The notes under the pieces are model-generated. The model did not search any database, had not been told where the DNA came from, and saw only the letters and a list, made by a program, of their open reading frames with translations. DNA of 64,000 nt from Panopea generosa. Its lineage: Eukaryota > Mollusca > Bivalvia > Adapedonta > Hiatellidae. Shown piece after piece: positions 1,453-55,985 of the stretch (positions are counted from its first letter, which is position 1; the number at the start of each line of letters is the position of its first letter). The DNA lies in NCBI GenBank assembly GCA_029582155.1, contig CM055897.1:4571001-4635000 (forward strand). Direction: 5' to 3'. The translations under genes were made by a program, and so were the position numbers.

Positions 1453-3770
1453 TAATATCTACACTAGCCTGACATTATATGTATAACATTTATACTTATC
1501 TGACATTCTAGATATAACATTTATACTAACCTGACATTCTAGATATAATATTTACTCTAACCTGATATTCTAGATATAATATTTACTCTAATCTGATATT
1601 CTAGATATAACATTTATACTAACCTGACATTCTAGATATAACATTTACTCTAACCTGACATTCTATATATATATACTGAACCACTTTCGCTTAGTTTGAA
1701 TGTGAATTTTTTTTTAATATTTAACTAAATTTGACTGAAATCTTCAGTTTGTTGTATAATTATGTCTTATCAGTATACTGAAATAGCTAAATTGGACAGA
1801 AATATTCAATTTTATTGATTGATTTGAATTTAAAATCGGAAGGGATGGATTTCAAAATCAGGTTATCAGTAGCATTTGTGACCGCCGCGTGCGATGTTGA
1901 CTGCTTGACAGCCATGTCGCATGAGAGCACAAGCTTGTTTATGTCTAACCTGACATTCTATATAACATTTACTCTAACCTGGCATTCTAGACATAACATT
2001 TACTCTAACCTGACATTCTAAATATAACATTAAAACTAACCTGACATTCTAGATATAACATTTACACTAACCTGACATTCTAAATATAACATTAAAACTA
2101 ACCTGACATTCTAAATATAACATTGAAACTAACCTGATATTCTAGATATAACATTGAAACTAACCTGACATTCTAAATATAACATTTACCCTAACCTGAT
2201 ATTCTAAATATAACATTTACTCTAACCTGGAATTCTAAATATAACATTAAAACTAACCCGACATTCTAGATATAACATTTACTCTAACCTGACATTCTAG
2301 ATATAACATTTACTCTAACATGACATTTTAGATATAACATTAAAACTTACCTGGCATTCTAGATATAACATGACTCTTACCTGATATTCTATATATAACA
2401 TTAAAACTAACCTGGCATTCTAGATATAACATTTACTCTAACCTGACATTCTATATATAACATTAAAACTAATCTGACATTCTAAATATAACATTTACTC
2501 TAACCTGACATTCTAGATATAACATTAAAACTAACATGACATTCTAAATATAACATTTACTCTAACCTGGCATTTTAAATATAACATTTAAACTAACCTG
2601 ACATTCTAGATATAACATTAAAACTAACCTGACATTCTAGATATAACATTAAAACTAACCTGACATTCTAGATATAACATTTACACTAACCTGATATTCT
2701 AGATATAATATTGACTCTAACGTGACATTCTAAATATAACATTTACTCTAACCTGACATTCTAGATATAACATTAAAACTATCCTAAAATTCTAGATATA
2801 ACATTTACTCTAACCTGACATTCTAAATATAATATTTACTCTAGCCTGGCATTCTAAATATAACATTAAAACTAACCCAACATTTTAGATATAACATTTA
2901 CTCTAACCTGACATTCTTGATATAACATTTACTCTAACCTGACATTCTAGATATAACATTAAAACTTATCCGACATTCTAGATATAACACTTTACTCTAA
3001 CTTGACATTCTAGATATTATATTTACTCTAACCTGACATTCTAGATATAACATTAAAACTAACATGACATTCTAGATATAACATTAAAACTAACCTGTCA
3101 TTCTAGATATAACATTTACACTAACCTGACATTCTAGATATAATATTTATACTAACCTGATGTTCTAGATATAACATTTACTCTAACCTGACATTCTGGA
3201 TATAATATCTTCTCTAACCTGGCATTCTAAATATAACATTTACTCTAATCTGACATTCTATATATAACATTTACTCTAACCTGACATTCTGGATATAATA
3301 TCTTCTCTAACCTGGCATTCTAAATATAACATTTACTCTAATCTGACATTCTATATATAACATTTATTCTTACTAGGCATTCTAGATATAACATTTACAC
3401 TAACCTGATGTTCTAGATATAATATTTACACTAACCTGATGTTCTAAACATAACGTTTTCTCTAACCTGATATTCTAGATATAATATTTACTCTAACTTT
3501 GCATTTTATATATAACATTTACCCAAACCCGACATTCTAGATATAACATTTACTCTAACATGACATTCTAAATTTAACATTTACCCAAACCCGTCATTCT
3601 AGATATAACATTTACTGTAATGTGACATTCTAGATTTAACATTTACCCAAACCCGACATTCTAGATATAACATTTACTCTAACGTGACATTCTAGATGTA
3701 ACATTTACCCAAACCCGACATTCTAGATATAACATTTACTCTAACCTGACATTCTAAATTCTAAACATTC
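1453..3770. repeat. ~31-bp satellite array
   Basis: About 65-75 diverged units built on taacctgacattctagata followed by taacatttactc. Variants aaaac or acac replace the last bases. The array is interrupted at about 1677-1930 by unrelated sequence. It lies downstream of the trh gene. Confidence 0.95.
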
Positions 3771-11857: not shown

Positions 11858-14800
11858 CTAAAATTAAAAAAAAAACACAGAATAATTACATTTTTATACT
11901 ATAAGTTATTATATCACACGTATCATTTTAATGTTACTAAAACAACAATGGTTCAAGAAATAATGATGCCAAATTCGCCCTGAATGTTAACTATAATCAG
12001 TGCGAACATTAGTTGTACAATGTTAAAATCATATACATGTATTTATTTCTCCAATTTCGTCAACGTTAAAAATACACATTGTAAGATATGTTCATGTCCA
12101 AAAGAGATTAAGCATGTAAATAATCGAAATTTGATATTTATCTGAAATTGGATAACAAATGACATCTGAAACAATGATGCATTGAACGCTACAGTTAAAT
12201 ACTGCTGAAGATTTGCTCCAGACAATCAAATATAACCAAAAACAAAGTACGAAAGCGGAGATAATTTCGTCATTATTCAAGATAGAGTTATGGTTCTTTC
12301 GTTCAGCACTTTCACACATTGCCTTCTATCCATGTTCCAATTCACGTTGGAGTACTTCACATATTATTGAAGATATGCTCCGAATATGCAAAAATAATAA
12401 AAATAAAGTACAAAAGAGTAGATAATTCTGTTAACATGCACAGACGAAGAAACGTACGCACGGACGGTCGGGCAGACAAAGTGGCAGCTTTATGCTTTTC
12501 CTTTGAGGAGCATAAAAATATATCAACCTTGTAACACTATGCAAAAGTTTCATGGTGTAAATTCCTGTATATTACCTTGTTCACAATTGCTGTCACGTGA
12601 CTGAGGACTGTTTATTGGAGTATCCAAGTGACTAGCGTCCATCACTACACCCCGATGCTCAATACTGCTGAAAACGTGCACAACGTCAGAATAAGAGAGT
12701 GTGATAATCAGAAAAAGAGACTGTGCTCGTCATAGTAAGAGACTGTGATCTTTATAATAAGAGTAAGAGGCTGAGCTCGTCATAATAAGAGACTGTGATC
12801 TTTATAATAAGAGTAAGAGGCTGTGCTCGTCATAATAAGAGACTGTGATCGTTAGAAAAAGAGACTATGGTCGTCATATTAAGAGACTGTGATCATAATA
12901 ATAATAGACTGTGATCGTCATAATTAAGAGACTGTGATCGTCATAATAAGAGACTGTGATCGTCATAAAAAAGACAGTCATCGTCATAAAATGATACCGT
13001 GATCGTTATGATAAGAGACTTTGATCGTCATAATAAGAGACTGTAGTGGTCGTAAAAAAGACAGTGATCGTCATAATAATGAGACTGTGATCGTTATAAT
13101 AAGAGACTGTGATCTTCATAATAAGAGACTGTGATGGTCATAAAACAGAGACTGTGATCGTCATAATAAGATACTGTGATCGTCATAGTAAGAGACTGTA
13201 ATGGTCATAAAAAGAGACGGTGATCGTCATAAAAAAAGACTGTGATCGTCATAATAAGAGACTGTGATCATCATAAAAATAGAATGTGATCGTCATAATA
13301 AGATACTGTGATCATCATTATAAGAGACTGTGATCGTCATAATAAGACACTGTGATCGTCATTAAAATAGACTGTGATTGTTTAATATGAAACTGTGATA
13401 ATTAGAAAATGCAACTGTGATAATCAGAAAAAGAGACTGTGCTCGTCATTATAAGAAACAGTTCGTTAGAAAAAGAGACTGTGCTCGTCACAATAAGAGA
13501 CTGTGATCGTCATAATAAGAGTAAGAGGCTGTGCTCGTCATAATAAGAGACTGTGATCGTTATAATAAGAAACTGTGATCGTCATAATAAGAGTATGTGA
13601 TGGTCATAAAAAGAGACTGTGATCGTCATAATAAGAGACTGTGATCGTCATAATAAGATACTTTAATGGTCATAAAAATAGACTGTTATGGTCATAATAA
13701 GAGACTGTGATCATTATATTAAGAGACTGTGATGATCATAAAAAGAGACTGGGATCATCATAATAAGAGACTGTAATAATCAGGAAAAGAGACTGTGCTC
13801 GTCATTTAAAGAAACTGTTCGTTAGAAAAAGAGACTGTGCTCGTCATAACAAGAGACTGTGATCGTCATAATAAAAGTAAGAGGTTGTGCTCATCATAAT
13901 AAGAGACTGTGATCATTAGAAAAAGAGGCTGTGGTCGTCATAACAAGAGATTACAGCCGTCATGATAAGAGACTGTGATCGTCAATATAATAAACTGCGG
14001 TCGCCATTATCACAGACTGTGACCGTCAATATTATAAACTGCGGCCGCCATAATCGCAGACTGTGACCGTCAATATAATAAACTGCGGCCGCCATAATCA
14101 CAAACTGATCGTCAATATAAGAGGCTGCGACCGCCATAATCACAGACTGTGATCTTCAATATAAGGGGCTGCGATCGTCATAATTAGAAACTGTCATAAT
14201 GGTACATAGAGCCAGAATGATTTAACTGTAGAATTCCATGAGGTAAGTGTAAAATTTTACAATTAATATTCCAGTCTGCATACATGTTGAAAAACTAAAA
14301 TATGTCGACTGTTAAACGAATTCCTATCAGATGTACCAGTAACGAATTACGAAACAAAATTTTGCCGAATAGAATGTTTATAATATGAAATGTTTAAACG
14401 ACTCCATACTAGTAGAACAAACCGTATAGATACATTAACAAACCTGGCCGCTCACGCAAGAGTTTATGGGTTCGATCCTCAGCTGATATTATTGTAGCTT
14501 TTGGTTTATCATGAAACATTTGTTTTGCTTGATTTGTGTCTGCTTGCTTATATAAAAAATGATATTCTACGAATAAAAACTAGTCCCTGTCGTGTATGAT
14601 CATTTTGGAGGCGAACCAAGACTCCAAAGCTTCATCATGAAGACATGAGCAGGGCTTGTCCTTGGCACTAATAACACATTCGGTAATGGTATAAACGTAA
14701 TCAACAAACCTTATTGTTTGGAAAATGGCAAGAACGGTCTGGTCATCCGATGTTTTGGAGTTATACAGAGAGGTCGCACACATCTGTACCCAAATGAACC

Positions 14801-17800
14801 CGCCACCTTTATTGAGGATTCGCAACGATGGCGACATTACCTGACCCTTAGATAGCACTGTATGGAATAAAATGAGAAGATAATATAGCGATGTCGACAT
14901 GACCTGACCCTTAGATAGCACTGTGTGGAACAAAAGGAGAAGATAATATAGTGATGGCGACATAACCTGACCCTTAAATAGCACTGTGTGAAATAAAATG
15001 ATAAAATAATATAGTGATGGCGCCATAACCTGACCCTTAAATAGCACTGTGTGAAATAAAAGGAGAAGGCAATAAAGTGATTGCGACATTACCTGACCCT
15101 TAGATAGCACTGTGTGGAATAAAATGAGACGATAATATAGTGATAGCGATATTACCTGACACTTATATAGCACTATGTGGAATAAAAGGAGAAGATAATA
15201 GAGTGATGGCGATATTACCTGACCCTTAGATAGCACTGTGTGGAATAAAAGGAGAAAACAATATAGTGATGGAGACATTATCTGACACTTAGATAGCACT
15301 ATGTGGAATAAAAGGAGACGATAATATAGTGATTGCGACATTACCTGACCCTTAGATAGCACTGTGTGGAATAAAATGAGACGATAATATAGTGATAGCG
15401 ATATTACCTGACACTTATATAGCACTATGTGGAATAAAAGGAGACGATAATAGAGTGATGGCGATATTACCTGACCCTTAGATAGCACTGTGTGGAATAA
15501 AAGGAGAAAACAATATAGTGATTGAGACATTATCTGACACTTAGATAGCACTATGTGGAATAAAAGGAGACGATAATATAGTGATTGCGACATTACCTGA
15601 CCCTTAGATAGCACTGTGTGGAATAAAAGGAGACAATAATATAGTGATTGCGACATTACCTGACCCTTAGATAGCACTTTGTGGAATAAAAGGAGACGAT
15701 AATATAGTGATTGCGACATTACCTGACCCTTAGATAGCACTGTGTGGAATAAAAGGAGAAGATAATATAGTTATGCCGACATTACCTGACCCTTAGATAG
15801 CACTGTGTGAAATAAAAGGATAAGATAATATAGCCACGGCGACATTACCTGGCCATTAGATAGCACTGTATGGAATAAAAGGAGAAGATACTATAGTGAT
15901 GGCGATATTACCTGACGCTTAGATAGCACTGTGTGGAATAAAAGAAGACGACAATAGAGTGATGGCGATATTACCTGACCCTTAGATAGTACTATGTGGA
16001 ATAAATGGAGACGATAAAATAGTGATGGCGACATTATCTGACCTTAAGATAGCACTATGTGGAATAAAAGGAGATGACAAAAAAGTGATGGCGATATAAC
16101 CTGACCCTTAGATAGCACTGTGTGGAATAAAAGGAGAAGATAATATAGTGATGCCGACATTACCTGACCCTTAGATAGCACTTTGTGGAATAAAAGGAGA
16201 CGATAATATAGTGATGGCGACATTACCTGACCCTTAGATAGCACTGTATGGAATAAAAGGAGAAGATACTATAGTGATTGCGACATTACCTGACCCTTAG
16301 ATAGCACTGTGTGGAATAAAAGAAAAAGACAATAGAGTGATGGCGATATTACTTAACCCTTAGATAGCACTGTGTGGAATAAAAGGAGAAGATAATATAG
16401 TGATGGCGACATTACCTGACCCTTAGATAGCACTTTGTGGAATAAAAGGAGACGATAATATAGTGATTGCGACATTACCCGACCCTTAGATAGCACTGTG
16501 TGGAATAAAAGTAGAAGATAATATAGTGATGCCGACAGTACCTGACCCTTAGATAGCACTGTGTGGAATAAAAGGATAAGATAATATAGTCATGGCGACA
16601 TTACCTGACCATTAGATAGCACTGTGGGGAATAAAAGAAGACAATACAGTGATGGCAATATTACCTGACCCTTAGATAGCACTGTGTGGAATAAAAAGAT
16701 AAGATAATAGAGTGATGGCAACATAACATGACTCTTAGATAGTACTGTGTGGAATAAAAGGAGACGACAATATAGTGATGGCGACATTATCTGACCCTTA
16801 GATAGCACTGTGTAGAATAAAAGGAGACGACAATATAGTGATGGCAACATTACCTGACCCTTAGATAGCACTGTGTGGAATAAAAGGAGAAGAAAATATA
16901 GCCATAGCGACAGTACCTGACCATTAAACAGCACTGTGTGGAATAAAATGAGAAGACAATATAGTGATTGCGATATTACCTGACCCTTTGATAGTATTGT
17001 GTGGAATAAAAGGAGACGACTATTCAGTGATGGCGACATTACCTGACCCTTAGATAGCACTGTGTGAGTTTGAAAGGAGACGACAATATAGTGATTGTGT
17101 GGAATAAAGGGAGACGATAATATAGTGATGGCGACATTACCTGACCCTTAGATAGCACTATGTGGAATAAAAGGAGACGATAAAATAGTGATGGCAACAT
17201 TACCTGACCCTTAGATAGCACTATGTGGAATAAAAGGAGACGACAATATAGTGATTGTGTGGAATAAAGGGAGACGATAAAATAATGATGGCGACATTAC
17301 CTGACCCTTAGATAGCACTATGTGGAATAAAAGGAGACGATAAAATAGTGATGGCGACATTATCTGACCCTGAGATAGCACTATGTGGAATAAAGGGAGA
17401 CGATAAAATAATGATGGCGACATTACCTGACCCTTAGATAGCACTTTGTGGAATAAAAGGAGACGATAATATAGTGATTGCGACATTACCTGACCCTTAA
17501 ATAGCACTGTGTGGAATAAAAGGTACGACAATAGAGTGATGGCGACATTACCTGACCCTTAGATAGCACTGTGTGGAATAAAAAAAATCGATTATTTAGT
17601 GCACAATAACAAGAGTTTACATTCCAATCAAATGTAGCCGATAAATCATTGTTATAAAAGTCAAAATGCATGTCAAGGCTAAACAAAGAATATGAGGAAA
17701 AGGTACGTGTTAGATATTTACAAAAGTATGAGGAATCTTAATATCGAGTATACGTACAGTCTGTATGTGTTTTTCTGAGATGGCAGACGTCACCAGGATG

Positions 17801-20800
17801 ACAAAACGTGTAGAGATTTTTAGCAGCCAAATCCTCACATTTCCAGTCCGTTAATGATGACACCCTGGATTATATGAAGATACAAACACAATTAAGAAAC
17901 ACCAACTAAATGTCCAAATGGAGACTTGGTATACAAAAGAAACGGTCACCACAACAGAGTAAACAAACAAAACACAATAAATTGATTTTTATCAGTCGAT
18001 CGCTGCAAACATATTACTCGTACAGACATTGCCACATACGTTGCCGTTAAGAAAAGTGGGGGGTGGGGGGGATGCCACTGAAGAATTCAAACCGGGATCT
18101 AACAACCCCGCACGTTCCCTATCCGTCACATTATGAAACAATATGTAGTAGTAAAAAAACACTACGGTGCATAAAACTTATCCTGTTAAAAACATGGCAT
18201 CAGCTTTACAACTGTTGTATGAAATTAACTGATTTCTTACGAGTATTTCTTTTTTATTATTTTAATGAAAGCAAAACGAAAGAGAGTGGGTAAAATACAA
18301 ATGTCTTGATTTCATGGAACATAAACGTTTATAACTTCAATGTCATTCGATACATATATGAAAAATACCCCACTAAGAAAAGGTCGCTACTCTTTTATGA
18401 ACATACAGTTCATGGCTATACCTAATTGTCGCGGTGGTTCATCCCTAACAATAACTACAAGTAGAGTTCAACCCAGAAAATATTGCGCAGTATTTGGTTA
18501 GGTTGAAGAACTTGTTTCGATGTAAAATAAGAAGGTTTAAATAAAAATTAGTCGTCTATACATATATTGGGGGAAAACGGTAGTGAATGTAAGTCTATAG
18601 GTGATGTATTGCTCAGGTTAATTTATTTTTAATTAGTAATTGATGACACTCGCCACAAACTCATAAGTCGTCTGTGAATTATCAACAACAAATAGCATGA
18701 AAGTATTATAATACATACATAATTGATATATAACGTTCAACGGTTCAACGTAATTTGTAACTGTAATCATAAGATATAAAAAGTGCACATAAAATGTATA
18801 AATGTGAGAACGATAACTTGAATATGAAAGTCGGGTATCCAAGGAAATGTCAAGCAATATATTAACTCACACATTTTCACAATAAATGATTTTGAACTGC
18901 GTGGTGAGCCGCATTATGAACGTATCCGCCTCTATCCGGAGTTCCGTTACGCTAGGTGGCGGAAGTGCTATAGCGACAGCTGTGAGACCCAGCATTGGCG
19001 CCTGTCCCTTCCTGCCAAGACCAAAACTCATCTGGTGTCTGAACTGACCACAGATTTGTAGGACCTAAAACAAACAAAATATAAAAAGAAATATTGTAAG
19101 AACTGTAAATTATAACGAATTGCTCATTTTTGTGCGGAGAGATGGGAAGATATCCTAATTCTACACAATATGCATTTTGTTATGTGGACTTCTTTGAGTG
19201 CATTGCATATATACTGTACAATAACTCTGTATTTAATTCATGTGTTTAGGGATTTTGCTTTCAGGGAAGAATATCCAATTATATCAATACCAACTGTTTG
19301 CAGGCCAAAACAAATTCCTTTATTTTGTTTCTACTACAAAACAATCAATATCAGAAATACCTATGTCGTGTTAATACATCTGTCAATACACAATTACAGT
19401 CAAACCTGTCTTAAACAGCCAATCAAGGGATGGAGCAAAAGTGTCCTATTAAGTCATGTTGTTGCTTAATACAGATTAATTTGCTCTTAAAGTTTAGAAA
19501 TGGGAAATAGCTAATGTGGCTGCTTAAGACAAGTGGCTGCTTAATAGAGTTGACCACTTACACAGGTTTGACTGTACGGTATGACCATTTACAATTTATA
19601 TTAAAATAAATATGGCATATACATCACTAAAAATATATAAACACAGGTAATAAACATAAAACAGTCCCACATTGTAAGACATCATATCTAGACATTACAT
19701 TGTTCAATGATTTAATTGGTTGAATATATTTAAGAATCAGTAATAGTATAAACGTATAAAAGCCTCCGATATATATCTTGATATACTAAAAAAGTTAGAA
19801 TGTGTCTTGGAATCCAAATCAACAGAAGATGAGAATAAAATATGTTATAGACGCCTACACTTGTTTCCGGTAAAAATACACCAATGTGTCCAGGGCTCTT
19901 GCTCGCACCTGGGAATGTGGTTGGGGCCACTAACTATGGAATATTGACGATATTCTTAAAGTAATTAGGAAAATTGCACAGCACAGGTTCCCTCGATATA
20001 AGTAACAAGATGTAATATATGTGTTATATATGTGTAGTATTTATTAAATGTATAAAAATGTGATGTTCTTGTAGAAGACTACAATAAAATCATAATATAA
20101 AAAAATCTCCAAATTTTCCTCTCGATAATTGCTTTAAGTTTCTTTGCATTTTGAAATTGAAATTTGTCATTTTGTTTGGGGAAAAAATATACTTTTTTTT
20201 TGCTATTGGGAATAGGGCAGAATAAAGGCCTCTAAAATCGGCAAACGAGAGCCCAGGTGTCGATTGGTCACCTTTGCTACAAATGTTTAACAATAAAAAC
20301 ACCGACAAACCCTGTATCCAGACGACCGTATGTGAACTCCTCGTTTGGTTAAAGTTGACTTCATCCGTAAACAGAATGTTATATCTGGGCCATTTTCTAG
20401 ATTTGGTGTCATCAAGGGTACTGAAAGAAACACACATTGATGTATACAGAATGTTATATCTGGGTCATTTTCTAGATTGGGTGTCATCAAAGGTACTGGA
20501 AAAAACACACAGTGATGTAAACAGATTGTTATATCTGGGTCATTCTCTAGATTTGGTGATCATCAACGGTACTGAAAGAAACACACATTATGACGATGAT
20601 TTCTTTGTGACGGGCATGTTATATGTAAATATATTGTCCCATCAAAATATAATATCATGTTGTTCAACAGTCTACCAATAACTCGTAAATAAAATATTCA
20701 GGACAATGATATCAATTGATATATTGCAATGACCTCACTATTTAAAGGGACTGTAAAATATACATGGTTAATAACAACATCATGGCGAAGTATTTGAAAA

Positions 20801-23800: not shown

Positions 23801-26800
23801 ATATATAAACAAAAGTGATACTACTATATGCGGGTGTACTCAGTGATTTGGCAGAAGCCTGAGCAGCAAGCTTATTCATTTGTCTGGCTTTAAAAAACGC
23901 ATACTGGCCGTATTAGTACAATGGTTAGGTTTCAGAGATAGATTAAAAAGAAATGAATGTAAGATATGTAATGCTGTACGTAGCATATCAAAGGATTGGC
24001 CCACATTGCCTAACACTATTGTGCAATACTGTTCCGTGTGATGGTTTGAAAAGATACACATTTTTTACCTTAGTAATCTCTGAAAACCTTTGACATGACA
24101 ATTTTGTCAACTTTATCGTGTTAGTACAAAATTGAAAATCTGACCCTCGAGAAAGAACTCTTTTGAAAAACATCCTTTTATCCGAATACAGAAAAGTGTA
24201 TTAGATTTAATCTTACATAGCTCATCATCATATACGATTAACAATGTACAGTATACACGCATCGCAACTCATAGTCAATCAGTTATGAACGAATGAAGTA
24301 ATTAATATTTAGTCATGTTTGTCAATGAAAGTGATTTAAAATATGCACAGGCATATGATATGGAGCATAGTTTACTTTGCATTTAAAAACTTTGTCTAGG
24401 TTTCAAGGCTTTAATTATCAATGATTGCTATATTTGTGGTATTCAACAGTTCAATAAGCTTGTACATATTTGGTATTTTATAATAATATTTCCCAATGTG
24501 CCATTTATCACTACACGTAGTTTAAACGATAATACGGGACTAGACAGCGCCTTTCTAAGAATAAATTCAGCTGTTTTTGTTTGCAGGCAGGTACACTCAA
24601 TCACAAACAGCCGCGCTTATTCAATATGCTGACTCACCTGTGTACATTTAAATACACTACCGTTAAGTCTCGCAACAAACCCATAACTCATTTTAAATAC
24701 TCGTCCTCTGACAAACTACACGGTACGATACATTGTTGTTTATAGATACGACATTTAATATCAAACATAAAACAGCAGACGTACTTTTTGAATTACTTTA
24801 TTTTTTATTATTTACGGATGTTTCAGTGCTTCGGAAGAGCAAAGTCTGTGTAACCTCAACAGTTAAATATAAAATGATAATTAATGTCATTGTATAGATA
24901 CATTTTTTTAATTAACGCACCTGTAAACGAATTGATCTTAATTAACAGAGCAATTAAAAATACACCAACGTCAGGTCGAGATATCAAATGTGTATATATA
25001 CATAGCGAAAAAGATTATATACAATATGCAATGGACAATGTATAAATGCGGAAGTTCTTAATTGTTTAAACGAAATACATGTATGTGTATTGTGAATATT
25101 TTCTATATAATATTATGTAGTTTATCAAAAATGAAAAATAACACACTACTGGTTGAATAATGTATTTAAACACGTTCATTATGAAAGATAGTTTTGGTAT
25201 AAATGAATATATATGCGTTTCTTTTGCTGACTCTAGGTCATTCATCAACAATAAATTGACTATCGTATTCGCTTTCTAATGTAAGAGCAACCAGAAACTA
25301 TATTTTGGTTTAATACAAAATAACTTATCAAGCATTTTTTATTTCTTCCTTATCGATATTTGAAAAGAACACGTAAATCTGCAAATAATATTCTTTGAAA
25401 AATCAAATTCTAAAATGCTTGCATGCACTTAAATTGTGAAATGATAGACCTGGGTTTGCATTTCACAAAAAAACTTACGAAAAAATTAGATCGTAAACGT
25501 AGAAGAAGTATCATTCATAATATTTTAAATATTAATCCAGATTAACCCAACCTCAGGTTGAATATTTCATAAAACGGTGTGTTTCTGACAATAAAATCTT
25601 ATATTCATTCGGATGACCATGAACATTAGTTTGAAAGTGTCTTACTTCACGTTTACGACTGATTATTTTTCTGAAATGCAACCCTGGCCCCGAGGTTATA
25701 AAACTTAATTCATGCTCAATTCAAGTTCGTACTCATAAAATGTCAAAGATTTATTAGAACGCAGACACTTGACTTGGTTTCAAATATGAAAGTATTTCTA
25801 CATTGTACTGTTTTGTGATACATAGTTACAGGTATTTGTATATATTTTGTTGTAATGAGTCAGTTCGTATTTGCGATGAGCATTAACCCGTGAGTTGAGC
25901 ATGAAAGTTATACAACCTCGGACCAGTTAGATAAAGCATCGTCGCCAAACGTTACATTTTTATCATTTAACTAATGAACACTATAATACGTATAAACCTA
26001 TATTATGAGAACATACTTGCGAGACCCAAACCAAGATGGTCAGCTAGTTCTTGGTGATCTTGACTGTGAACATAGTCGAACATACTGCTGCCTGCCATCT
26101 CTACCTATAACAAAGCAAAGGTTAAGATGATAAAACCGGACTTACATAGTAAATGTTGCTACCTGTCATCTCTACCTAGAACATAACGATGGTTGAGCTA
26201 ATACAACCGGACATATATGCTTTAAATAAAACTAAAGAGGCCTCACCTATATCGCCGATATATTTTCGATCTAAGCAGTAAAACTACATGTTTATATCAA
26301 ACATCATGTATTATTCTGTCTCTGTAGTGTAAAATTTGTTATTAAAATACAAATCGCGGCACGTGATACTAAACCGCGACCCGTGATAAAGTCTCGCATT
26401 GGCCAGTATCGGGTTTTGCTAAAACATTGACTAATTAAACGGAAAAAAGACGACCTGTGTATTAACGAATTTCTCATAAATAAGATAAACTACAAGGACG
26501 GAATCAACCATTATCCTCGAATGGGACCTTCCTCATTATGATTCAAAAATACTTTCATCATTTACTGAACAGAAAGGTTAAGGTGATGCATCTTTAGGAA
26601 AAGGTTGGTGAAACTGACGTCAGTACTACCACAATTATTTATTCTTATTCGCCCAACATATTCAAGTGTTGTCATACACACGTGTGCTTCTATTTATGCA
26701 TGAAACCGTGCGCTGTACACTACAGATTGCCGCTCTGTGCCTAAATATATTGAATCGCTAAATGGTGAAATTAAGATATAAATTTGCAAGATATTGACAA

Positions 26801-33182: not shown

Positions 33183-36100
33183 GTTTGTGACTATGATGAC
33201 ATTTTCCTGACACAAGATGACGATGTCTAAGTAAACATAACATTGTATTTACATGGACAAACAACACCACGTGGTCAGTGGGCGGGGCGATAATCGTTCT
33301 CGCGTCAGATCAAGTATCCAGGTTCTTTGGGTACACAGGATTTGACTCCATCTTAATTCAATAGGCGAAGGAGCCAGGGGGTGGGGAGGCCCACCCCATC
33401 CAAATATCCAAATATTCAGGTTGGGGGAGCAGCATATACTTTGGGACCTAAAAGTTTACATCCTCATACAGTCTCTCCTCAGGTTGCCCCCCCCCCCCCC
33501 CCCCGCCCCCACATTCAATAACTGAAACGCTCCTACGCCCATGAATTTAACTAAATGTCGAAAGGAAATAAAGTTAAACGGAATAGTACGTGTTATGACA
33601 GCTTACAAGGGGAAAAAAACATAATAACATATATTTAGTTTTACTGATTGGGTTTCTTAAATCATGACCGACAAATATGACCAACAAAATCAATAACTTA
33701 TACTATATATAAACCGTTTTACTACCAATACTATTCTTCACCTTGAGGTAAACATGCCTGACGTTCTGCACTACTGAACTTTTAACTTATACGAATAGGT
33801 AGACAACGTACCTTATGTAAAGTATGACACAGTAATTTTGTAATGTCAAAATCTAATCCATCAAGAGGCCTCACACATAACAAAACAATAAATGTCAAAC
33901 ATTAATATTATCATTATGATTATTAAGCCATTGTCATTATTAAATTACAAATAATAAATCTATATAAACAATTTTATGCTTTAATGAGTCTGAACAAAAT
34001 AATAGAAATTGGGACGCTGATTTATAAGTAGATTTCTATTTAAAATTAAATCAGTTATAATAGAAAAGTATAATAAAAATAAATGTTCGTTTTAATCCTT
34101 TGAAACATGCCTTCATACTCAATAACACTTCCATGCTGGCCTAGTGTAATCCAAAAATACAGATATTTAAAATCATTAAATAAACAACTAGAAACTGCCC
34201 TTAAATAATTAAAAAAAGAAAGATGATGGCAAAAAAAAAAATTTTTTTATTATTTTGCAATGAACAAAAACAAGCAAATTAAAAGAAAGAAAATATTCAA
34301 TAAGAGACGACACTGACACAGCAGCACATGAACTCCTATATCAGTGTAACTGCAGAGGACTCACACTTCTAGTATCTGCCTTGGATACTCCGGATAGAGT
34401 AAAGCTTAAGTTCCATTTTTCTTCTTTTTTTTCAGGACTTTTTATTGCAGTGATTTATTTTTTCCTACCATGTGTTAAAAAATAATCAGTATTTTAGAAA
34501 TCATCAGTGTAAATTTGATGTGTAAATTTGATGCTGATTCCAGATTGCTATGCTTTTTTTGAGGGTTTATAACAGAAGTACAATGTTAAGACTATTAAAA
34601 ACTGACAAAATGGTATTGCTTATATTGTTACATAACTAGCAGGTGGCTGTCCTACTTAATTAACCTGATGTTAAAACATGTAAGTATGTGAAGATTACCT
34701 GTAGAATGTGTGCCCCCTGGTGCATTTCAAACAACTCAACAGCAAGACCGGTGTTGTTTCGCCGCCGCTGACCGCCTGTAGGTAGAGATAAAAGTGTATG
34801 GTTAGCTGGAGTCTGTTAGTGATAGGAGTTAATATCTACCGTCAACTGCTTATTTTGGTTAAAATGAAATTAAAATGAACGGTTGTTGAGAAATGTCATG
34901 TCCAGTTTAAGAGAGAATATATCAGCTAGTTACAAGCGTTAATATCTCCCGCTGACCGCTTGTTTGGTTGAGATAAAAGTGTACCGTTTAGTGAGAATGT
35001 TATGTCCAGTTAAATGGAATATATCAGCTAGTTGAATGTGTTTATATCTCCCGCTGACCGCTTGTTTGGTTGAGATAAAAGTGCACGGTTAGTTGAGAAA
35101 TATCATGTCCAGTCAAAGGGATTATATCAGCTAGTTGCATGCGTTAATATCTCCCGCTGACCGCTTGTTTGGTTGAGATAAAAGTGTACCGTTTAGTGAG
35201 AATGTTATGTCCAGTTAAATGGAATATATCAGCTAGTTGAATGTGTTTATATCTCCCGCTGACCGCTTGTTTGGTTGAGATAAAAGTGCACGGTTAGTTG
35301 AGAAATATCATGTCCAGTCAAAGGGATTATATCAGCTGGTTGCATGCGTTAATATCTCCCACTGGCCGCCTGTTTGGTTGAGATAAAAGTGTATGGTTAG
35401 TTGAGAAATGTTATGTCCAGTTAAAGGGATTATATCAGCTAGTTACATGCGTTAATATCTCCAGTTGACCGCTTGTTTGGTTGAAATAAAAGTGTACGGT
35501 TAGTTGGGAAATGCCATGTCCAGTTAAAGGGATTATATCAGATGGTTGCATGCGTTAATATCTCCCGCTGACCGCTTGTTTGGCTGAGATAAAAGTGTAC
35601 GGTTAGTTGAGAAATGTTATGTCCAGTTAAATGGAGTATATCAGCTAGTTGCATGCGTTAATATCTCCCGCTGACCGCTTGTTTGGTTGAAATAAAAGTG
35701 TACGGTTAGTTGGGAAATGCCATGTCCAGTTAAAGGGAATTATATCAGCTGGTTGCATGCGTTAATATCTTCCCGCTGACCGCATGTTTGGTTGAGATAA
35801 AAGTGCACGGTTAGTTGAGAAATAGCATGTCCTGTCAAAGGGAATATATCAGCTAGTTGCATGCGTTAATAGTCTCCCACTGGCCGCCTGTTTGGTTGAG
35901 ATAAACGCGTACGGTTAGTTGGGATATGGCATGTCCAGTTAATGGAAACATATCAGCTAGTTACAGGTCTTAATATCTCCAGCTGACCGCCTGTTTGGTT
36001 GAGATAAAAGTGTACGGTTAGTTAGGACACGTTCATGTCCAGTTAAAGGGAATATATCAGCTAGTTGCAAGCGTTTATATCTCCCGCTGACCGCTTGTTT

Positions 36101-38668
36101 GGTTGAGATAAAATCGTACGGTTATTTGAGAAATGTCATGTCCTATCAAATGGAATGTATCAGCTAATTACATTGGTTAATATCTCCCGCTGACCGCTTG
36201 TTTGGTTGAGATAAAAGTGAACTGTTAGTTGAGAAATATCATGTCCAGTCAAAGGAAATATATCAGCTGATTGCATGCGTTAATATCTCCCGCTGACCGC
36301 CTGTTTGGTTGAGATAAAAGTGTACGGTTAGTTGGGATATATCATGTCCAGTTAAATGAAACATATCAGCTAGTTGCATTCGTTAATATCTCCCGCTGAC
36401 CGCCTGCTTGGTTGAGATAAAAGTGTACGGTTAGTTGGGAAATGGCATTTTCAATAAAAGGGATAACATCTGCTAGTTGCATGCGTTAATATCTCCCGCT
36501 GACCGCTTGTTTGGTTGAGATAAAAGTGTACGGTTAGTTGAGAAATGTTATGTCCAGTTAAATGGAATATATCAGCTATTTGCATGCATTAATATCTCCT
36601 GCTGACCGCTTGTTTGGTTGAGATAAAAGTGTACGGTTAGTTGGGATATGTCATGTCCAGTTAAATGGAATACATCAGCTAGTTGCATTAGTTAATATCT
36701 CCCGCTGACCGCCTGCTTGGTTGAGATAAAAGTGTACAATTAGTTGGGAAATGACATGTTCAATTAAAGGGATAACATCTGTTAGTTGCATGCGTTAATA
36801 TTTCCCGCTGACCGTTTGTTTGGTTGAGATAAAAGTGTACGGTTAGTTGAAAAATGTTAAATGGAATATATCAGCTAGTTGCATTCGTTAATATCTCCCG
36901 CTGACCGCTTGTTTGGTTGAGATAAAAGTGTACGGTTAGTTAAGAAATGTTATGTCCAGTTAAATGGAATATAGCAGCTAGTTACATGGGTTAATATCTC
37001 CCGCTGACCGCTTATTTGGTTGAGATAAATATGAACGGTTAGTTGAGAAATTTCATGTTCAGTCAAAGGGAATATATCAGCTAGTTGCATTGGTTAATAT
37101 CTCCCGCTGACCGCTTGTTTGGTTGAAATAAAAGTGTACGGTTAGTTAAGAAGTGTTATGTCCAGTTAAATGGAATATATCAGCTAGTTGCATTGGTTAC
37201 TATCTCCCGCTGACCGCTTGGTTGGTTGAAATAAAAGTGTACAGTAAGTTAAGAAGTGTCATGTCCAGTCAAGTGGAAAATATCAGCAAGTTACATGAGT
37301 TAATATCTCCCGCTGACCGCTTGTTTGATTGAGATAGTATTGGTGAAGGGGTTGTGTAGTAGGGGGGTTGGGTACCAAAAGGTAGGTCCAAGCTACTCGC
37401 CGGACGCACATAATGTGAAATAATGCACAGCTAAACATAAATGACGTTATTATAATTTCTTACTTCATGACAATTCCATATGTTGAATATATCGTTCCTG
37501 TTTTTTCTGTTCGTATAGTACCGAAGGTATAAATCTAATTTTAACTGGCAGTACATATAGATAATGTAAATTTGGTCAATACTACTCAATGAAGCTGAGT
37601 TTGAATTTTTTTTCAAATAACCATTGAATCAGGTCTATTTATTACTTATTTAAAAAAAAAACATGTTTATAAATGCTTTATAGACACAAAATGGAGAAAT
37701 GTTTTCTCAGTCACATGATTTATCAGGATTTTTCAAACTTTTAAAATTGGCTAAAATATATTTTTTTCCAATAAATCAGGCCTATATATATATTCAATGA
37801 CCACCGTATTGCCAAAATATATTTATTTTAACCTGTAAAATGATATATTAAACAGATGATTTCCTTACTTGAGCTACGCGCCTAGGTGAGACTAAAATAG
37901 ATTTCCCGTTTAGAAGTGCAACATATTTTGTGACGTATTAAATGAGTCACGTGTTTTCATTTTAATTTCAAACTGATCCATTTTAGTTTATGCTAATTTG
38001 TTTTTAGGCTCGATTGCGATGAAAGCTCAAAGCTTATATAAACCGCTCTCGAGTCCGCTTCCTAGGTAGAACCGGTACTGAGTGTTGTTTTATGAGAGAC
38101 ATCGAGTCGACCGGGGGATCGAACCCACAACCTCTGGTGTGAGCGGCCAACACTATATCCATTAGACTACCGCCCCGCATTTTACAGATGGTTGGATCCA
38201 GGATTTCGGTTTAGAGGGGCGTGCAACAAAGAATCTGAACGGCCAAAAACGTTTTCAGTAGAAATATTTTAATTCTATACATAAGATCCGTATTTGAAAT
38301 TAATACTTTTAATAGATAGACTTTTATTAATTTATAGTACCTTAGTCATTCTCACTGTAATATACAAAACTGTATATACTAGGGTATCATCTTAGTATAA
38401 TTAGTTGATAACTCACGTTGGTATGTATACCACTGTTAGTATGTTAGTATTAAACGCATTGTCAAACGTACATTATATTCGTTTACAAAAAATTGATAAA
38501 TTTCTTATGTATGTTATACTGTTATCCGTTTTGTTGTTGTGTTATTTATTATTCTTTTTATCATTATTTTATTAGTATTGTTCTTCTTCTTCTTCTTTTT
38601 CTTCTTCTTCGTTTTCTTGTTCTTCTTATTCTTCTTCTTCTTCTTCTTCTTCTTCTTCTATCATTATC

Positions 38669-41700: not shown

Positions 41701-44700
41701 TTATAACCAAGTCTGTGTCTCTGCCATTAAATAAATATTATTTTAATAGTTCTAATTAATTTGCGTTCTCAATCATTTATTCATTCATTTTATTTTTATT
41801 CATCTATATAAAAATGCATATATTCATTTATGCATTAACTCAACATTTGCAAACCTACTGATTTAAGTTATAAAATCCAGTTATGAATAGTGCGATCGGC
41901 CATTTGTTTTATTAACTTGAGGTAAACCACCTTCGGGACCGACAGACACTGCATTCTAGCCACATAAATAACAAAACCCGACAAGCGCCTTTTTTGATAT
42001 AAGAATATGAAATTATTAAAGTATTAAAAAAGATATTTATTACATACATCGGCGTCACAACCCATTTTAAGCTTTCTAATTGATAATAAAATTGTATATA
42101 TTGAAAAGCCTTAAAAATATAAAACATCCCTATAAAAGTAGGCAAAAATGTTTAATATTGTATTTTATTGTAATGTAAATTGATATCTAGACTGCTCAAT
42201 ATTGTTAAACGCTTAATAGGAATATCCCGTACATTCTGCGTGATATATGGTCTTCTTATGTGAAACATTAAACGAAATAAATGGTTTTATGGTCCATTCT
42301 TCAATACGGTCCCTTTACTGTATTACGTAACACAATCATCCAATAACCTCGATAACCAAGTCTGGCAACATTCTTTTTGAAATTAATACAGCAAAAAATA
42401 AGACACACTCTCAAATCCGCCCATTAAAATCTTAATATCTTATCACGAGCGATTGAAAACAATTTGATAATTGCCATAGAAGCGGTGCCAGTAAGTAAAG
42501 GCATTGATGTTATGCCAAAGTTATGTCAAAATGGTTTTGGGTCATTGACGATATACCTCAAGTTTCCAGGGCACTAGAAGAGTTACGAGAAGCAGAAACG
42601 GGAAAGATAGACTACGATAGCCCGCTGTATGCATCATTTGTAGCGCTGCACTATCACATCAAAGATCAGATACAAAATTGGTGTAAACACGGCTCAAATA
42701 ACTGATAGACTGGAAAAAAGTTCATGTACTTTTCATAGAAATAAAACTTGACTTGAACGTTTACACACATTGTATAAATGGTACACTAAAATTACCAGTT
42801 GAAACAAGTAAAAAAGTAAGAAAACAAATAAAACCACCTTCAACGTATCCAGTATAAGTTATTATGATATACAGGAAGTAATAGGGAAAATAATAAAAAC
42901 ATCATTAAACGATGTACACAAATACACGCAGCCAGTTTAACACATACAAAGCATGCGCTCTGTCTCATCCAATTTTCGCACATTTCACTTACAGTTTGAT
43001 TCGACTATTATCAAACGTAGGCATTATGCAAACATTATCTGAACCCTTGTCAAATAAAAAAACTCTTACACGTGAATCACACAGTTTGACTAATCCCTTG
43101 TCATATAAAACCTGACACATATGGAACCTACAGCTTAACTTAACTCTTATTAGAAAAAACCTGACACATATGGAACCCACAGTTTAATTTAACCCTTGTC
43201 AGATAAAAATGTTACATGTGAATCAAACTGTTTAACTTAACCTTTGTCATATCAAACCTGATACATATGGAACTTACAGCTTAACTTAACCATTGTCAGA
43301 TAAAAAAAACTGTTACACGTGAATTACACAGTTTAACGTAACCCTTGTCAGATAAAAAATGTTACATGTGAATCAAACTGTTTAACTTAACCATTGTCAT
43401 ATCAAACCTGATACATATGGAACTTACAGCTTAACTTAACTCTTGTCAGATAAAACGGACACATACGGAACCCACAGCTTATCTTAACCCTTGTCAGATA
43501 AAAAAAACTGTTACACGTGAATCTCACAGTTTGATTTAACCCTTGTCAGATAAAACGTGACACATACGGAACCCACAGCTTAACTTAACCCTTGTCAGAT
43601 TAAAAAACTGTTACACGTGAATCAAACTGTTTAACTTAACCATTGTCATATAAAACCTGATACATATGGAACTCACAGCTTAACTTAACCCTTGTCAGAT
43701 AAAACCTGACACATATGGAACCAACAGCTTATCTTAAACCTTGTTAGATAAATACCTGACATATATGGAACCCACAGCTTAACTTAACCCTTGTCAGATA
43801 AAAAACTGTTACACGTGAATCAAAGAGTTTAACTTAAACCCTTATCAGATAAAACCTGACACATATGGAACCCACAGCTTATCTTAACTCTTGTCAGATA
43901 AAACCTGACACATATGGAACCCACAGCTTATCTTAACACTTGTCAGAAAAAAAACCTGACACATATGGAACCCACAGCTTAACTTAACCCTTGTCAGATA
44001 AAACCTGACACATGTGGAACCAACAGCTTATTTTAACTCTTGTCAGATAAAACTTGACACATATGGAACCCACAGCTTAACTGAACCCTTGTCAGATAAA
44101 AATCTGTTACACGTGAATCAAACTGTTTAACTTAACCCTTATCAGATAAAACCTGACTCATATGGAACCCACAGCTTAACTTAACCCTTGTCAGATAAAA
44201 CTTGACACATATGGAACCCACAGCTTAACTTAACCCTTGTCAGATAAAAAAACTGTTACACGTGAATCAAACTGTTTAACTTAACCCTCATCAGATAAAA
44301 CCCTTACACATATGGAACCCACAGCTTAACTAAACCCTTATCAGATAAAACCTGACACATATTGAATCCACATCTTATCTTAACCCTTGTCAGATAAATA
44401 CCTGACATATATGGAACCCACAGCTTAACTTAACCCTTGTCAGATAAAACCTGACACATATGGAACCCACAGCTTAACTTAACCCTTGTCAGATAAAAAA
44501 CTGTTACACGTGAATCAAAGAGTTTAACTTAACCCTTATCAGATAAAATCTGACACATATGAAACCCACAGCTTATCTTAACATTTGTCAGATAAAACCT
44601 GACACATATGGAACCCACAGCTTAACTTAACCATTGTCAGATAAAACCTTACACATATGGAACCCACAGCTTCTCTTAACTCTAGTCAGATAAAACCTGA

Positions 44701-47700
44701 CACATATGGAACCCACAGCTTAACTTAACCCTTGTCAGATAAAAAAACTGTTACACGTGAATCAAACTGTTTAACTAAACACTTATCAGATAACACCTGA
44801 TACATATGGAACCCACAGCTTAACTTAACCCTTGTCAGATAAAACCTGACTCATATGGAACCCACAGCTTAACTTAACCCTTGTCGGATAAAAAACTGTT
44901 ACACGTGAATCACACAGTTTGACTTATCCCCTGTCAGATAAAACCTGACGCATATGGAACCGACAGTTTAACTTAACCCTTTTCAGATAAAACCTGACAC
45001 ATATTGAACCCACATCTTATCTTAACCCTTGTCAGATAAATACCTGACACATATGGAACCCACAGCTTAACTTAACCCTTGTCAGATAAAAAAAACTCTT
45101 ACACGTGAATCACACAATTTGACTTAACCCTTGTCAGATAAAACCTGACACATATGGAACCTACAGCTTAACTTAAACCTTGTCAGATAAAACCTGACAC
45201 ATATGGAACCCACAGCTTATCTTAAACCTTGTCAGATTAATACCTGAAACATATGGAACCCACAGCATAACTTAACCCTTGTTAGATAAAAAAAACTGTT
45301 ACACGTTAATCACACAATTTGACTAAACCCTTGTCAGATAAAACTGACACATATGGAACCCACAGCTCAACTTAACCCTTGTCAGATAAAAAAAAAACTG
45401 TTACACGTGAATCACACAGTTTGACTAAACCCTTGTCAGATAAAACTGACACATATGGAACCCACAGCTTAACTTAACCCTTGTCAGATAAAAAAAACTG
45501 TTACAAGTGAATCACACAGTCTGACTAAACCCTTGTCAGATAAATACCTGACACATACGGAACCCACAGCTTATCTTAACCATTGTCAGATAAAAAACAC
45601 TTTCACGTGAATCACACAGTTTGACTAAACCCTTGTCAGATAAAACCTGACACATATGAAGCCCACAGCTTATCTTAACCCTTGTCAGATAAATACCTGA
45701 CACATATGGAACCCACAGCTTAACTTAACCATTGTCAGATAAAACCTTACACATATGGAACCCACAGCTTCTCTTAACTCTAGTCAGATAAAACCTGACA
45801 CATATGGAACCCACAGCTTAACTTAACCCTTGTCAGATAAAAAAACTGTTACACGTGAATCAAACTGTTTAACTAAACACTTATCAGATAACACCTGATA
45901 CATATGGAACCCACAGCTTAACTTAACCCTTGTCAGATAAAACCTGACTCATATGGAACCCACAGCTTAACTTAACCCTTGTCGGATAAAAAACTGTTAC
46001 ACGTGAATCACACAGTTTGACTTATCCCTTGTCAGATAAAACCTGACGCATATGGAACCGACAGTTTAACTTAACCCCTTTCAGATAAAACCTGACACAT
46101 ATTGAACCCACATCTTATCTTAACCCTTGTCAGATAAATACCTGACACATTAGAACCCACAGCTTAACTTAACCCTTGTCAGATAAAAAAAACTCTTACA
46201 CGTGAATCACACAATTTGACTTAACCCTTGTCAGATAAAACCTGACACATATGGAACCTACAGCTTAACTTAAACCTTGTCAGATAAAACCTGACACATA
46301 TGGAACCCACAGCTTATCTTAAACCTTGTCAGATTAATACCTGACACATATGGAACCCACAGCTTAACTTAACCCTTGTTAGATAAAAAAAACTGTTACA
46401 CGTTAATCACACAATTTGACTAAACCCTTGTCAGATAAAACTGACACATATGGAACCCACAGCTCAACTTAACCCTTGTCAGATAAAAAAAACTGTTACA
46501 CGTGAATCACACAGTTTGACTAAACCCTTGTCAGATAAAACTGACACATATGGAACCCACAGCTTAACTTAATCCTTGTCAGATAAAAAAAACTGTTACA
46601 AGTGAATCACACAGTCTGACTAAACCCTTGTCAGATAAATACCTGACACATACGGAACCCACAGCTTATCTTAACCATTGTCAGATAAAAACACTTTCAC
46701 GTGAATCTCACAGTTTGACTAAACCCTTGTCAGATAAAACCTGACACATATGAAGCCCACAGCCTATCTTAACCCTTGTCAGATAAATACCTGACACATA
46801 TGGAACCCACAGCTTAACTTAACCCTTGTCAAATAAAAACTGTTACACGTGAATCACACAGTTTGACTAAACCCTTGTCAGATAAAAATGACACATATGG
46901 AACCCACAGCTTAAATAAACCCTTGTCAGATAACTACCTGACACATATGGAACCCACAGCTTAACTTAACCCTTGTCAAATAAAAAACTGTTACATGTGA
47001 ATCACACAGTTTGACTAAACCCTTGTCAGATAAAACTGACACATATGGAACCCACAGCTTAACTTAACCCTTGTGAGATAAAAAAAAAACTGTTACACGT
47101 GAATCACACGGTTTGACTAAACCCTTGTCAGATAAAACCTGACACATATGAAGCCCACAGCTTATCTTAACCTTTGTCAGATAAATACCTGACACATATG
47201 GAACCCACAGCTTATCTTAACCCTTGTCAGATAAATATCTGACCTCCATCAATCACACAGTTAAACTAAACCATTTTTACATAAAACATTGCACAGATTA
47301 ACTTAACCATCGCCATAAACGCTTAAAGCAGACAAATCTCGTATCATTGTCAGGAACAGATGATCTAACACCTACTTATTGTTTTTCTTTACCATGTCGA
47401 GAATGAATTATTCACGCGCCTGTCTCAGTTATAGCGATACAAAAGTCTAGTATATTTCATTCACGTGCCCTGACTTAAACATGGTGACATAAGTTCAAGC
47501 ACACATTATTCACACACTCTATCTTAGTCGTGGTGGCATAAAACTAATTCACATACATGTCTTATGTCTTAACAATGATTACGTAATTGTCCAGCACAAA
47601 TTAGTCATGATCTGTCTCTCATGGTGAATCAAAGTCAAGAACATTATTATTCCCATGTTCTGTCTTTACCATGGTGATAGAGGTCAAGTTCATATTATTC

Positions 47701-53509: not shown

Positions 53510-55985
53510 ATCTTAACACTTTATGCACCAATAAAAATACACCGATACCCTTTATACACCAATATGAAGAGGCATATATACTTTAAACACACATATAAAT
53601 ACATCAATAAACTTAATACATCAATAAAACACACAGAAACACTTTATACACCAATACAAATACACGGAAACACTTTATACACCGATAAAACACACAGCAA
53701 CACTTTATACACCAATACAAATACACAGAAACACTTTATACACCGATAAAACACACAGCAACACTTTATACACCAATAAAACACACAGAAACACTTTATA
53801 TACCAATAGAGATACACCAATACACTTTATCTACCAATATGAAGGCACCGACACATTCTATGCACCAATATAAATACGCAAATACACATTATATACAAAT
53901 ATAAATACACAAATACACTTAAGACACCAATAAAAATACACAAATATAAAAAAAGCAAAAACATTTATCTGCCAATATAAATACACACATACATATTATA
54001 CACTAATATAAATACGCAAATACACTTTATATACCAATACAAATACACAAATACACTTAAGACATCAACGTTAATACACAAATACACTTTATACACCAAT
54101 ATAAATACAAAGATACACTTAAGACACCAATATAAATACACAAATACACTTTATACACCAATATAAATATACAAAAACACTTTATCTACCAATATAGATA
54201 GACCGACACATTCTAAACACCAATATTAATACACAAATACACTTTTACACTTTATACACCAATTTAAATACACAAAAACACTTTATCTACCAATATAGAT
54301 ACACCGACACATTCTATATACCAATATAAATACACAAATACACTTTATACACTAATATAAATACGCAAATACACTTTATATACCAATATAGATACAAAAA
54401 AACACTTAAGACACCAATATAAATACACAAATACACTTTATATCCCAATATAAATACACAAAAACACTTTATCTACCAATATAGATACACCGACACATTT
54501 ATACACCAATATAAATACACAAATACACTTTATACACAAATATTGATACACCGACACGTTCAATACACCAATATAAAAACACAAATACACTTTATACACC
54601 AATAAAGACATTCATACACTTTCTGTACCAATATGAATACATAAATAACGTTTATACACCAATATGAATAAACTCATACATCTTATTTACCAATATAAAT
54701 AAACTCATACACTTTATACACCAATATTAATACACCCATACACTTTATACACCAATACAGATACACCGATACACTTTGTACACGAATACAAATACACCGA
54801 TACACTTTAAACACTAATATGAATACACCCATTTACTTTATACATCAATATAAATAAACCCGATAGATTTTATACACCAATATTAATACACCAATACACT
54901 TTATACACCAATATAATACACCAATATAAATGCACATTTTACACCAATATAAATACATAAATACATTTTATAAACCAATATATATATACGTAAATACACA
55001 TTATATACAGATATAAATACACAATTACACTTAAGACACCAATAAAAAACACAAATACACTTTATACACCAATATAAATACGCAAAAACATTTATCTGCC
55101 AATATAAATACACACATACACATTATACGCCAATATAAAAATGCAAACACACTTTATATAACAATATAAAAACACGAATACACTTTAAACACCAATATAA
55201 ATACACAAATACACTTTATACACCAATATTAATACGCAAAAACATTTTTTTGCCAATATAAATACACAAATACACTTTATATACCAATATAAATACAAAA
55301 ATACACTTAAGACACCAACATAAATACACAAATACACTTTATACACCAATATAAATATACAAAATCACTTTATCTACCAATATAGATACACCGACACATT
55401 CTAAACACCAATATAAATACACAAATACACTTTATACACCAATTTAAATACACAAAAACACTTTATACACAAATATTAATACACCTACACATTCAATACA
55501 CCAATATAAAAACACAAATACACTTTATACACCTATAAAGACATTCATACACTATCTGTACCAATATGAATACATAAATAACGTTTATACACTTATATAA
55601 ATAAACCCATACATCTTATTTACCAATATAAATAAACTCATACACTTTATACACCAATATTAATACACCCATACACTTTATACACCAATACAGATACACC
55701 GATACACTTTGTACACGAATACAAATACACCGATACACTTGTAACACTAATATAAATACACCCATTTACTTTATACACCAATATAAATAAACCCGATACC
55801 TTTTATACACCAACATTAATACACCAATATAAATACACCAATACACCAATATAAATGCACATTTTACACCAATATAAAAACATAAATAAAATTTAAACAC
55901 CAATGTTAATGCATAAATTTATTTTATAAGCAAATATTAATACATAAATATATTTTATACCCCAATATAAATGTTTATTTATTAA
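53510..55985. repeat. ~30-bp satellite, 2.5 kb
   Basis: About 80 diverged units of ctttatacaccaatataaat plus acacaaatac. Longer blocks recur (54590-54880 versus 55510-55810), indicating higher-order duplication. Confidence 0.95.

Follow-up and report, generated by a model that had tools for sequence, protein, structure and literature searches.

The splice acceptor of exon 9 in a bHLH-PAS gene of the bivalve Panopea generosa is preceded by dozens of near-identical copies of itself, which occupy nearly all of intron 8. This raises the question of how such an intron may have been formed and which of the copies serves as the 3′ splice site. The locus was analyzed in a 64-kb window (the whole stretch of DNA, 64,000 nt; contig C4, positions 4571001–4635000) and was compared with other parts of the same genome. 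The array is very probably a “mirage”, i.e. a minisatellite that straddles an exon-intron junction, in which the unit next to the exon would be spliced and the remaining copies (termed decoys) would be nearly neutral.

The gene and its exons

The minus strand of the window carries a predicted bHLH-PAS gene that is NPAS1/3 (trachealess)-like, at positions 10578–48744. The predicted model has 11 exons: exons 1–4 at positions 48744–48506, 34775–34699, 27647–27558 and 26104–26017, exons 5–8 at 23498–23409, 20420–20311, 19064–18871 and 17864–17758, and exons 9–11 at 14857–14710, 12667–12576 and 11857–10578. When joined, these give a clean reading frame of 838 residues from the bHLH domain to the stop codon. 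The best named full-length relatives are heterodont bivalve proteins, with amino acid identities over the whole query of 54% (Ruditapes), 55% (Mercenaria), 53% (Mactra) and 46% (Mya), which makes a heterodont host most likely; the query in this search was a gene model two exons short of the 11-exon version.

Exon 8 encodes the first half of the PAS-B domain and exon 9 the second half, according to the gene model and the alignment of orthologues. Both exons show matches to PAS_3 and PAS_11 that are below the curated cut-off (those of exon 8 are weak).

Anatomy of the intron 8 array

Intron 8 encompasses positions 17757–14858 (2,900 bp). Matches to an anchor composed of the acceptor and the exon start are found on the minus strand from position 17573 down to 14862 and define 43 units, i.e. 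42 decoys and the true exon start. The decoy array, determined by these anchor matches and by TRF, is at positions 14858–17600, and 38 of the 42 unit spacings are exactly 63 bp, the other four being 62, 97, 98 and 60 bp. TRF reports positions 14827–17583, with a period of 63, 43.7 copies and 84% matches. The units cover 2,743 bp, or about 95% of the intron, if the count starts 32 bases upstream of the first acceptor, at 17600, and ends at 14858. The original prediction of about 42 acceptor copies that fill some 94% of a 2.9-kb intron is thus borne out.

Each unit comprises 32 intron bases and 31 exon bases (−32 to +31 relative to the acceptor). The order within the unit is a possible branch-site sequence (recognized by eye), a pyrimidine tract, CACAG, and exon bases 1–31; the pyrimidine tract, CACAG and the exon start had been described in the original prediction. 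A donor-like sequence, CAG|GTAATG, is also present inside the unit at +18. The AG is intact in 42 of the 43 units, the GT at +18 in 38, and both are intact in 37. The period of 63 bp represents a whole number of codons (21). The 43rd unit reaches into exon 9, whose bases 1–31 it supplies with its 3′ portion. To the left of the first unit there is ordinary intron sequence, and to the right of the last unit ordinary exon sequence, as would be seen if a segment that crosses the junction had been duplicated in tandem. The array therefore consists of tandem copies that carry both intron and exon sequence across the modelled exon 9 boundary, which is the structural definition of a mirage, and the surprise that its anatomy first caused was justified.

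The mean identity between units is 86%. Units that are four apart are at least 97% identical in 5 of 39 pairs, vs. none of the 42 neighbouring pairs; this is a sign of multi-unit block duplication within the array. A search of the 1.47-Gb genome (39 contigs) with the unit sequence gave at least 44 matches, every one of them within the array, and no match was found outside it; the search skips very common words and its counts are thus lower bounds. By the criterion set in this analysis (44 of 44 genome matches in the array), the unit is specific to the locus and is not a dispersed repeat.

Arrays of this type could be produced by faulty assembly, and one amphioxus mirage does appear to be aberrantly assembled in a draft genome, according to PMC3087553. 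An assembly artefact had also been named at the outset as a finding that would overturn the original prediction. The 86% identity and the graded differences among the copies argue against a simple artefact of this kind: read collapse or block copying would not give 43 graded variants, and distinct truncated units are present as well. The window contains no N. The same pattern is, in addition, found at other loci of the genome. An artefact is therefore highly improbable.

The acceptor of exon 9

The residues that flank the exon 8/9 join are contiguous in all eight aligned orthologues (seven bivalves and one gastropod, picked by choice from the list of relatives), and no insertion is present at the join in any of these eight. 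The last unit is thus most likely the true acceptor of exon 9. The gene model and the orthologues both support the original proposal that, among dozens of near-identical copies, the true site is the final one. That proposal would have failed if exon 9 started elsewhere; the modelled start fits, with the 838-residue frame being clean and the join contiguous.

Splice sites were scored with an approximate weight matrix. On this scale the true acceptor is placed 26th among the 43 sites, and 30 of the 42 decoys equal or exceed its score; sequence strength alone thus does not single out the true acceptor. The commonest decoy donor has a score of 7.6, vs. 4.7 for the real donor of exon 9. With the real donor, the last unit yields an exon of 148 nt, the next unit one of 211 nt, and so on. 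These lengths favour exon definition, and position may be the property by which the last unit is picked.

The high scores of so many decoys also speak for a rival reading, in which the proximal decoys serve as alternative acceptors. PAS-B variants with 21, 42, 63 or more extra residues would then be formed, and these would vary with the length of the array between individuals. The 21-codon period is in keeping with this. Moreover, the exon frame stays open in each of the 14 decoys closest to the exon, which give in-frame extensions of up to 294 residues, while all 28 distal decoys meet a stop codon or a frameshift. This open run is suggestive but weak as a possible sign of use: with eight in-frame stops among 42 decoys its chance is 0.026, or 0.064 if a duplicated four-unit block is entered a single time. 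The cut at 14 decoys, moreover, was chosen after the data had been seen.

Several observations do not agree with the use of decoys as alternative acceptors, in addition to the lack of an insertion in the eight orthologues. The mean variation at the three codon positions of the array is 0.066, 0.106 and 0.075, which is not a coding pattern. A protein search with the 396-residue frame of the array, in which only the 8000 best candidates were scored (lengths about 218–693 aa), yielded 10 proteins at E-values up to 0.01, each of which covers just 11%–21% of the query. No repeat protein that matches the array is found among these 10, as SKGQ occurs at most once in each of them and LLLLFH and FHTV are absent from all. 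Lastly, among 15 junction-spanning arrays the period is divisible by three in only 3 (63, 75 and 51), vs. 5 expected by chance, so that the frame seems not to matter. Use of the proximal decoys as alternative acceptors is quite improbable, and splicing at the unit next to exon 9 is the preferred reading. The alternative raised in the original prediction, namely that several of the acceptors are used, is weakly and indirectly supported.

Variation among the copies

A separate question is whether the decoys have a function other than as acceptors. The array could be a splicing-regulatory element, with decoys that bind U2AF or branch-site factors and thereby slow or time the removal of the intron. 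All units but one (42 of 43) retain the AG beside the pyrimidine tract; this might point to such a function, and work in elegans (PMC4039745) may be cited in its favour. Yet no more than one variant is present at 27 of the 63 columns. The quietest third of the unit comprises columns −2 to +19, and with them the acceptor AG; it displays 0.46 of the mean variation, with a permutation p of 0.02. In eight other arrays of the window, however, the quietest third shows 0.07–0.70 of the mean, and two of these arrays have a smaller p, one of them being the 103-bp mirage described below. Selection on the decoy acceptors was considered on the basis of the quiet third and was dropped, as the value of 0.46 lies inside the range of the other arrays.

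The 103-bp array also speaks against a regulatory element: on the reading adopted here, the AG at the homologous place is kept in 6 of 23 upstream copies and is lost in 17. In the three-copy and two-copy arrays of the same gene the AG is kept throughout. A function of the decoys is thus not clearly indicated by any of the tests, and a regulatory role is quite unlikely.

Other arrays in the gene and the window

With a score threshold of 40 bits, junction copies are present at 4 of the 11 acceptors of the NPAS1/3-like gene and at none of its 10 donors; the gene was examined because of its array, and 4 of 11 is thus not an unbiased rate. The second acceptor-spanning array, found by TRF and junction comparison, is at positions 34775–37336 (minus strand) and has 23 upstream copies with a 103-bp period, followed by the true acceptor of exon 2 (34775–34699). 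The third, identified in the same way, consists of three copies of 75 bp at positions 20367–20589 (minus strand) and spans the acceptor of the exon at 20420–20311. The fourth is a decayed two-copy duplication at positions 26065–26218 (minus strand), with copies approximately 71 bp apart and 79% identity over 62 bp, at the acceptor of the PAS-A exon (26104–26017).

The PAS-A exon reads VEMAGS, as in other heterodonts. The decayed extra copy upstream of it (26144–26218) reads VEMTGS, which equals the sequence in three of eight aligned orthologues.

An array of a different type is found at positions 12684–14194, where about 68 copies of a 22-bp sequence come to within 16 bases of the exon 10 acceptor (at 12667). 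This array does not span the acceptor, but occupies the expected position of the branch site. Minisatellites are dense in the 64-kb window as a whole, with at least 15 arrays, six of them over 1.5 kb; the large ones include those at 1944–3756, 34871–37336, 43035–47243 and 53515–55972.

Junction-spanning repeats elsewhere in the genome

Eighty exons elsewhere in the genome were scanned, together with flanks of 1,500 bases, for direct repeats that span an exon end (threshold 45 bits). These exons were defined by profile matches to the myosin head (50 of 81 listed matches) and to SNF2 (30 of 57), and none was dropped. The sample should be read with the understanding that it represents two families only, that several of the exons share a gene, that the ends of HMM matches only approximate the exon ends, and that a few matches cross introns and contain stops. 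Repeats were found at 4 of 80 exon starts and 7 of 80 exon ends, i.e. at 11 of 160 junctions. All 11 carry the AG or GT splice consensus as judged by eye, although in the copy at locus L077 the exon part is short. This suggests that junction-spanning repeats are common in the genome. A bias toward acceptors, which the NPAS1/3-like gene had suggested (4 of 11 vs. 0 of 10), finds no support among the 80 sampled exons (4 vs. 7).

By the same criterion, junction-type matches were obtained at 240 of 2800 (8.6%) and 289 of 2720 (10.6%) intron points, and exon ends are thus not enriched for junction repeats. In a measure of coverage by tandem-like repeats, 157 of 960 points at 200–1000 bp from an exon were covered, vs. 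4 of 80 and 7 of 80 for the two exon ends and 1 of 80 exon centres, so that exon ends are below deep intron. Such a gradient would result if repeats formed at all positions and were then eliminated from coding sequence by constraint. Tandem repeats are thus not concentrated at exon ends, nor are they excluded from them.

Two loci of the sample carry large arrays. L067, an SNF2-family exon on contig C6 (71009174–71009299, minus strand), has arrays at both ends: at least 30 copies of 49 bp at the acceptor, which run off the fetched locus, and 19 copies of 50 bp that span the donor. L044, an SNF2-family exon on contig C8 (6501143–6501313, minus strand), has an acceptor-spanning array of at least 16 copies of 97 bp with 95% matches, which runs off the fetched piece. 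This array is more uniform than that of intron 8, and is perhaps younger.

A combination of splice-junction minisatellites throughout the genome (at several per cent of exon ends) with occasional use of the 14 in-frame decoys would produce a polymorphic ladder of PAS-B insertions in a developmental regulator, set by the length of the array; this outcome is quite improbable, at about the level of alternative acceptor use itself.

Relation to known systems

Junction-spanning minisatellites (“mirages”) have been published for amphioxus Adh3 and globins (PMC3087553), and for lancelet troponin C and PGBD5 as well (PMC3902484); the founding paper on amphioxus Adh (PMC117041) is cited here after these two. 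For troponin C and PGBD5 the copy numbers vary with the sequence source, being 2 or 7 for a 60-bp unit and 3 or 6 for a 108-bp unit (PMC3902484). According to PMC3087553, the Adh3 data and RT-PCR of the globins suggest that splicing is regular in spite of the mirages.

The intron 8 array resembles those of Adh3 and of the globins BflGb6 and BflGb9, which also consist of minisatellite-like copies that span an exon-intron boundary. The amphioxus mirages are described as being at either exon end, with AG or GT in many units, and the BflGb6 units are 81%–100% alike. They differ in copy number, i.e. 2–7 copies in the counts consulted, which include none for Adh3, vs. 43 units in the bivalve array. 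They also differ in that Panopea belongs to another phylum, that four arrays are present in one bivalve gene, and that 11 of 160 exon ends are affected in the two-family sample.

The intron 8 array is thus of a known kind; its novelty, as far as the search extended, lies in the phylum, in the number of copies and in how abundant such arrays are. The original prediction knew of no described case with this copy number. That does not stand for the kind of structure, in view of the amphioxus mirages in print (PMC3087553, PMC3902484); the number of copies exceeds the 2 to 7 of the counts consulted. Within the same genome this number is not without parallel, as shown by the at least 30 copies at the L067 acceptor. 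No mollusc report of junction-spanning minisatellites was found in the open-licence literature, as judged by titles and the beginnings of abstracts.

Intron gain by tandem duplication of segments that contain AG and GT, an idea credited to Rogers in PMC3087553 and for which the potato RdRp gene is reported as a case (PMC4974935), also involves a duplicated segment with acceptor- and donor-like sites, as in the bivalve unit; the bivalve array, in contrast, lengthens an existing intron. Ordinary intronic minisatellites or VNTRs, such as the other arrays of the window, are similar in period, copy number and graded divergence, but the intron 8 unit contains a splice junction and its last copy is part of a coding exon. 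A paper on human tandem repeats that modify gene structure (PMC2812944) has no close bearing on the intron 8 array.

Proposed origin of the array

The process may have begun with a tandem duplication of a 63-bp segment that straddled the 3′ splice site, with 32 intron and 31 exon bases. Later expansion was probably by unequal exchange. Each exchange would keep one intact unit on the exon, so that the coding sequence would survive while the intron grew. The exon-proximal unit would most likely be the one spliced, since it alone gives the shortest exon, of normal length, with the real downstream donor. The decoys would be removed with the intron and would be close to neutral.

Significance

Each junction array represents a natural experiment, in which the spliceosome chooses one site among dozens of near-identical ones. 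The intron 8 locus is an extreme example, with its 42 decoys and with 30 of them scoring as high as the true site or higher by the approximate matrix. If the rate of 11 in 160 exon ends holds genome-wide, annotation of such genomes would need caution at exon ends that carry repeats, and this bivalve would offer a rich set of test cases for exon definition, for the lengthening of introns, and for the birth of new introns from duplicated splice sites.
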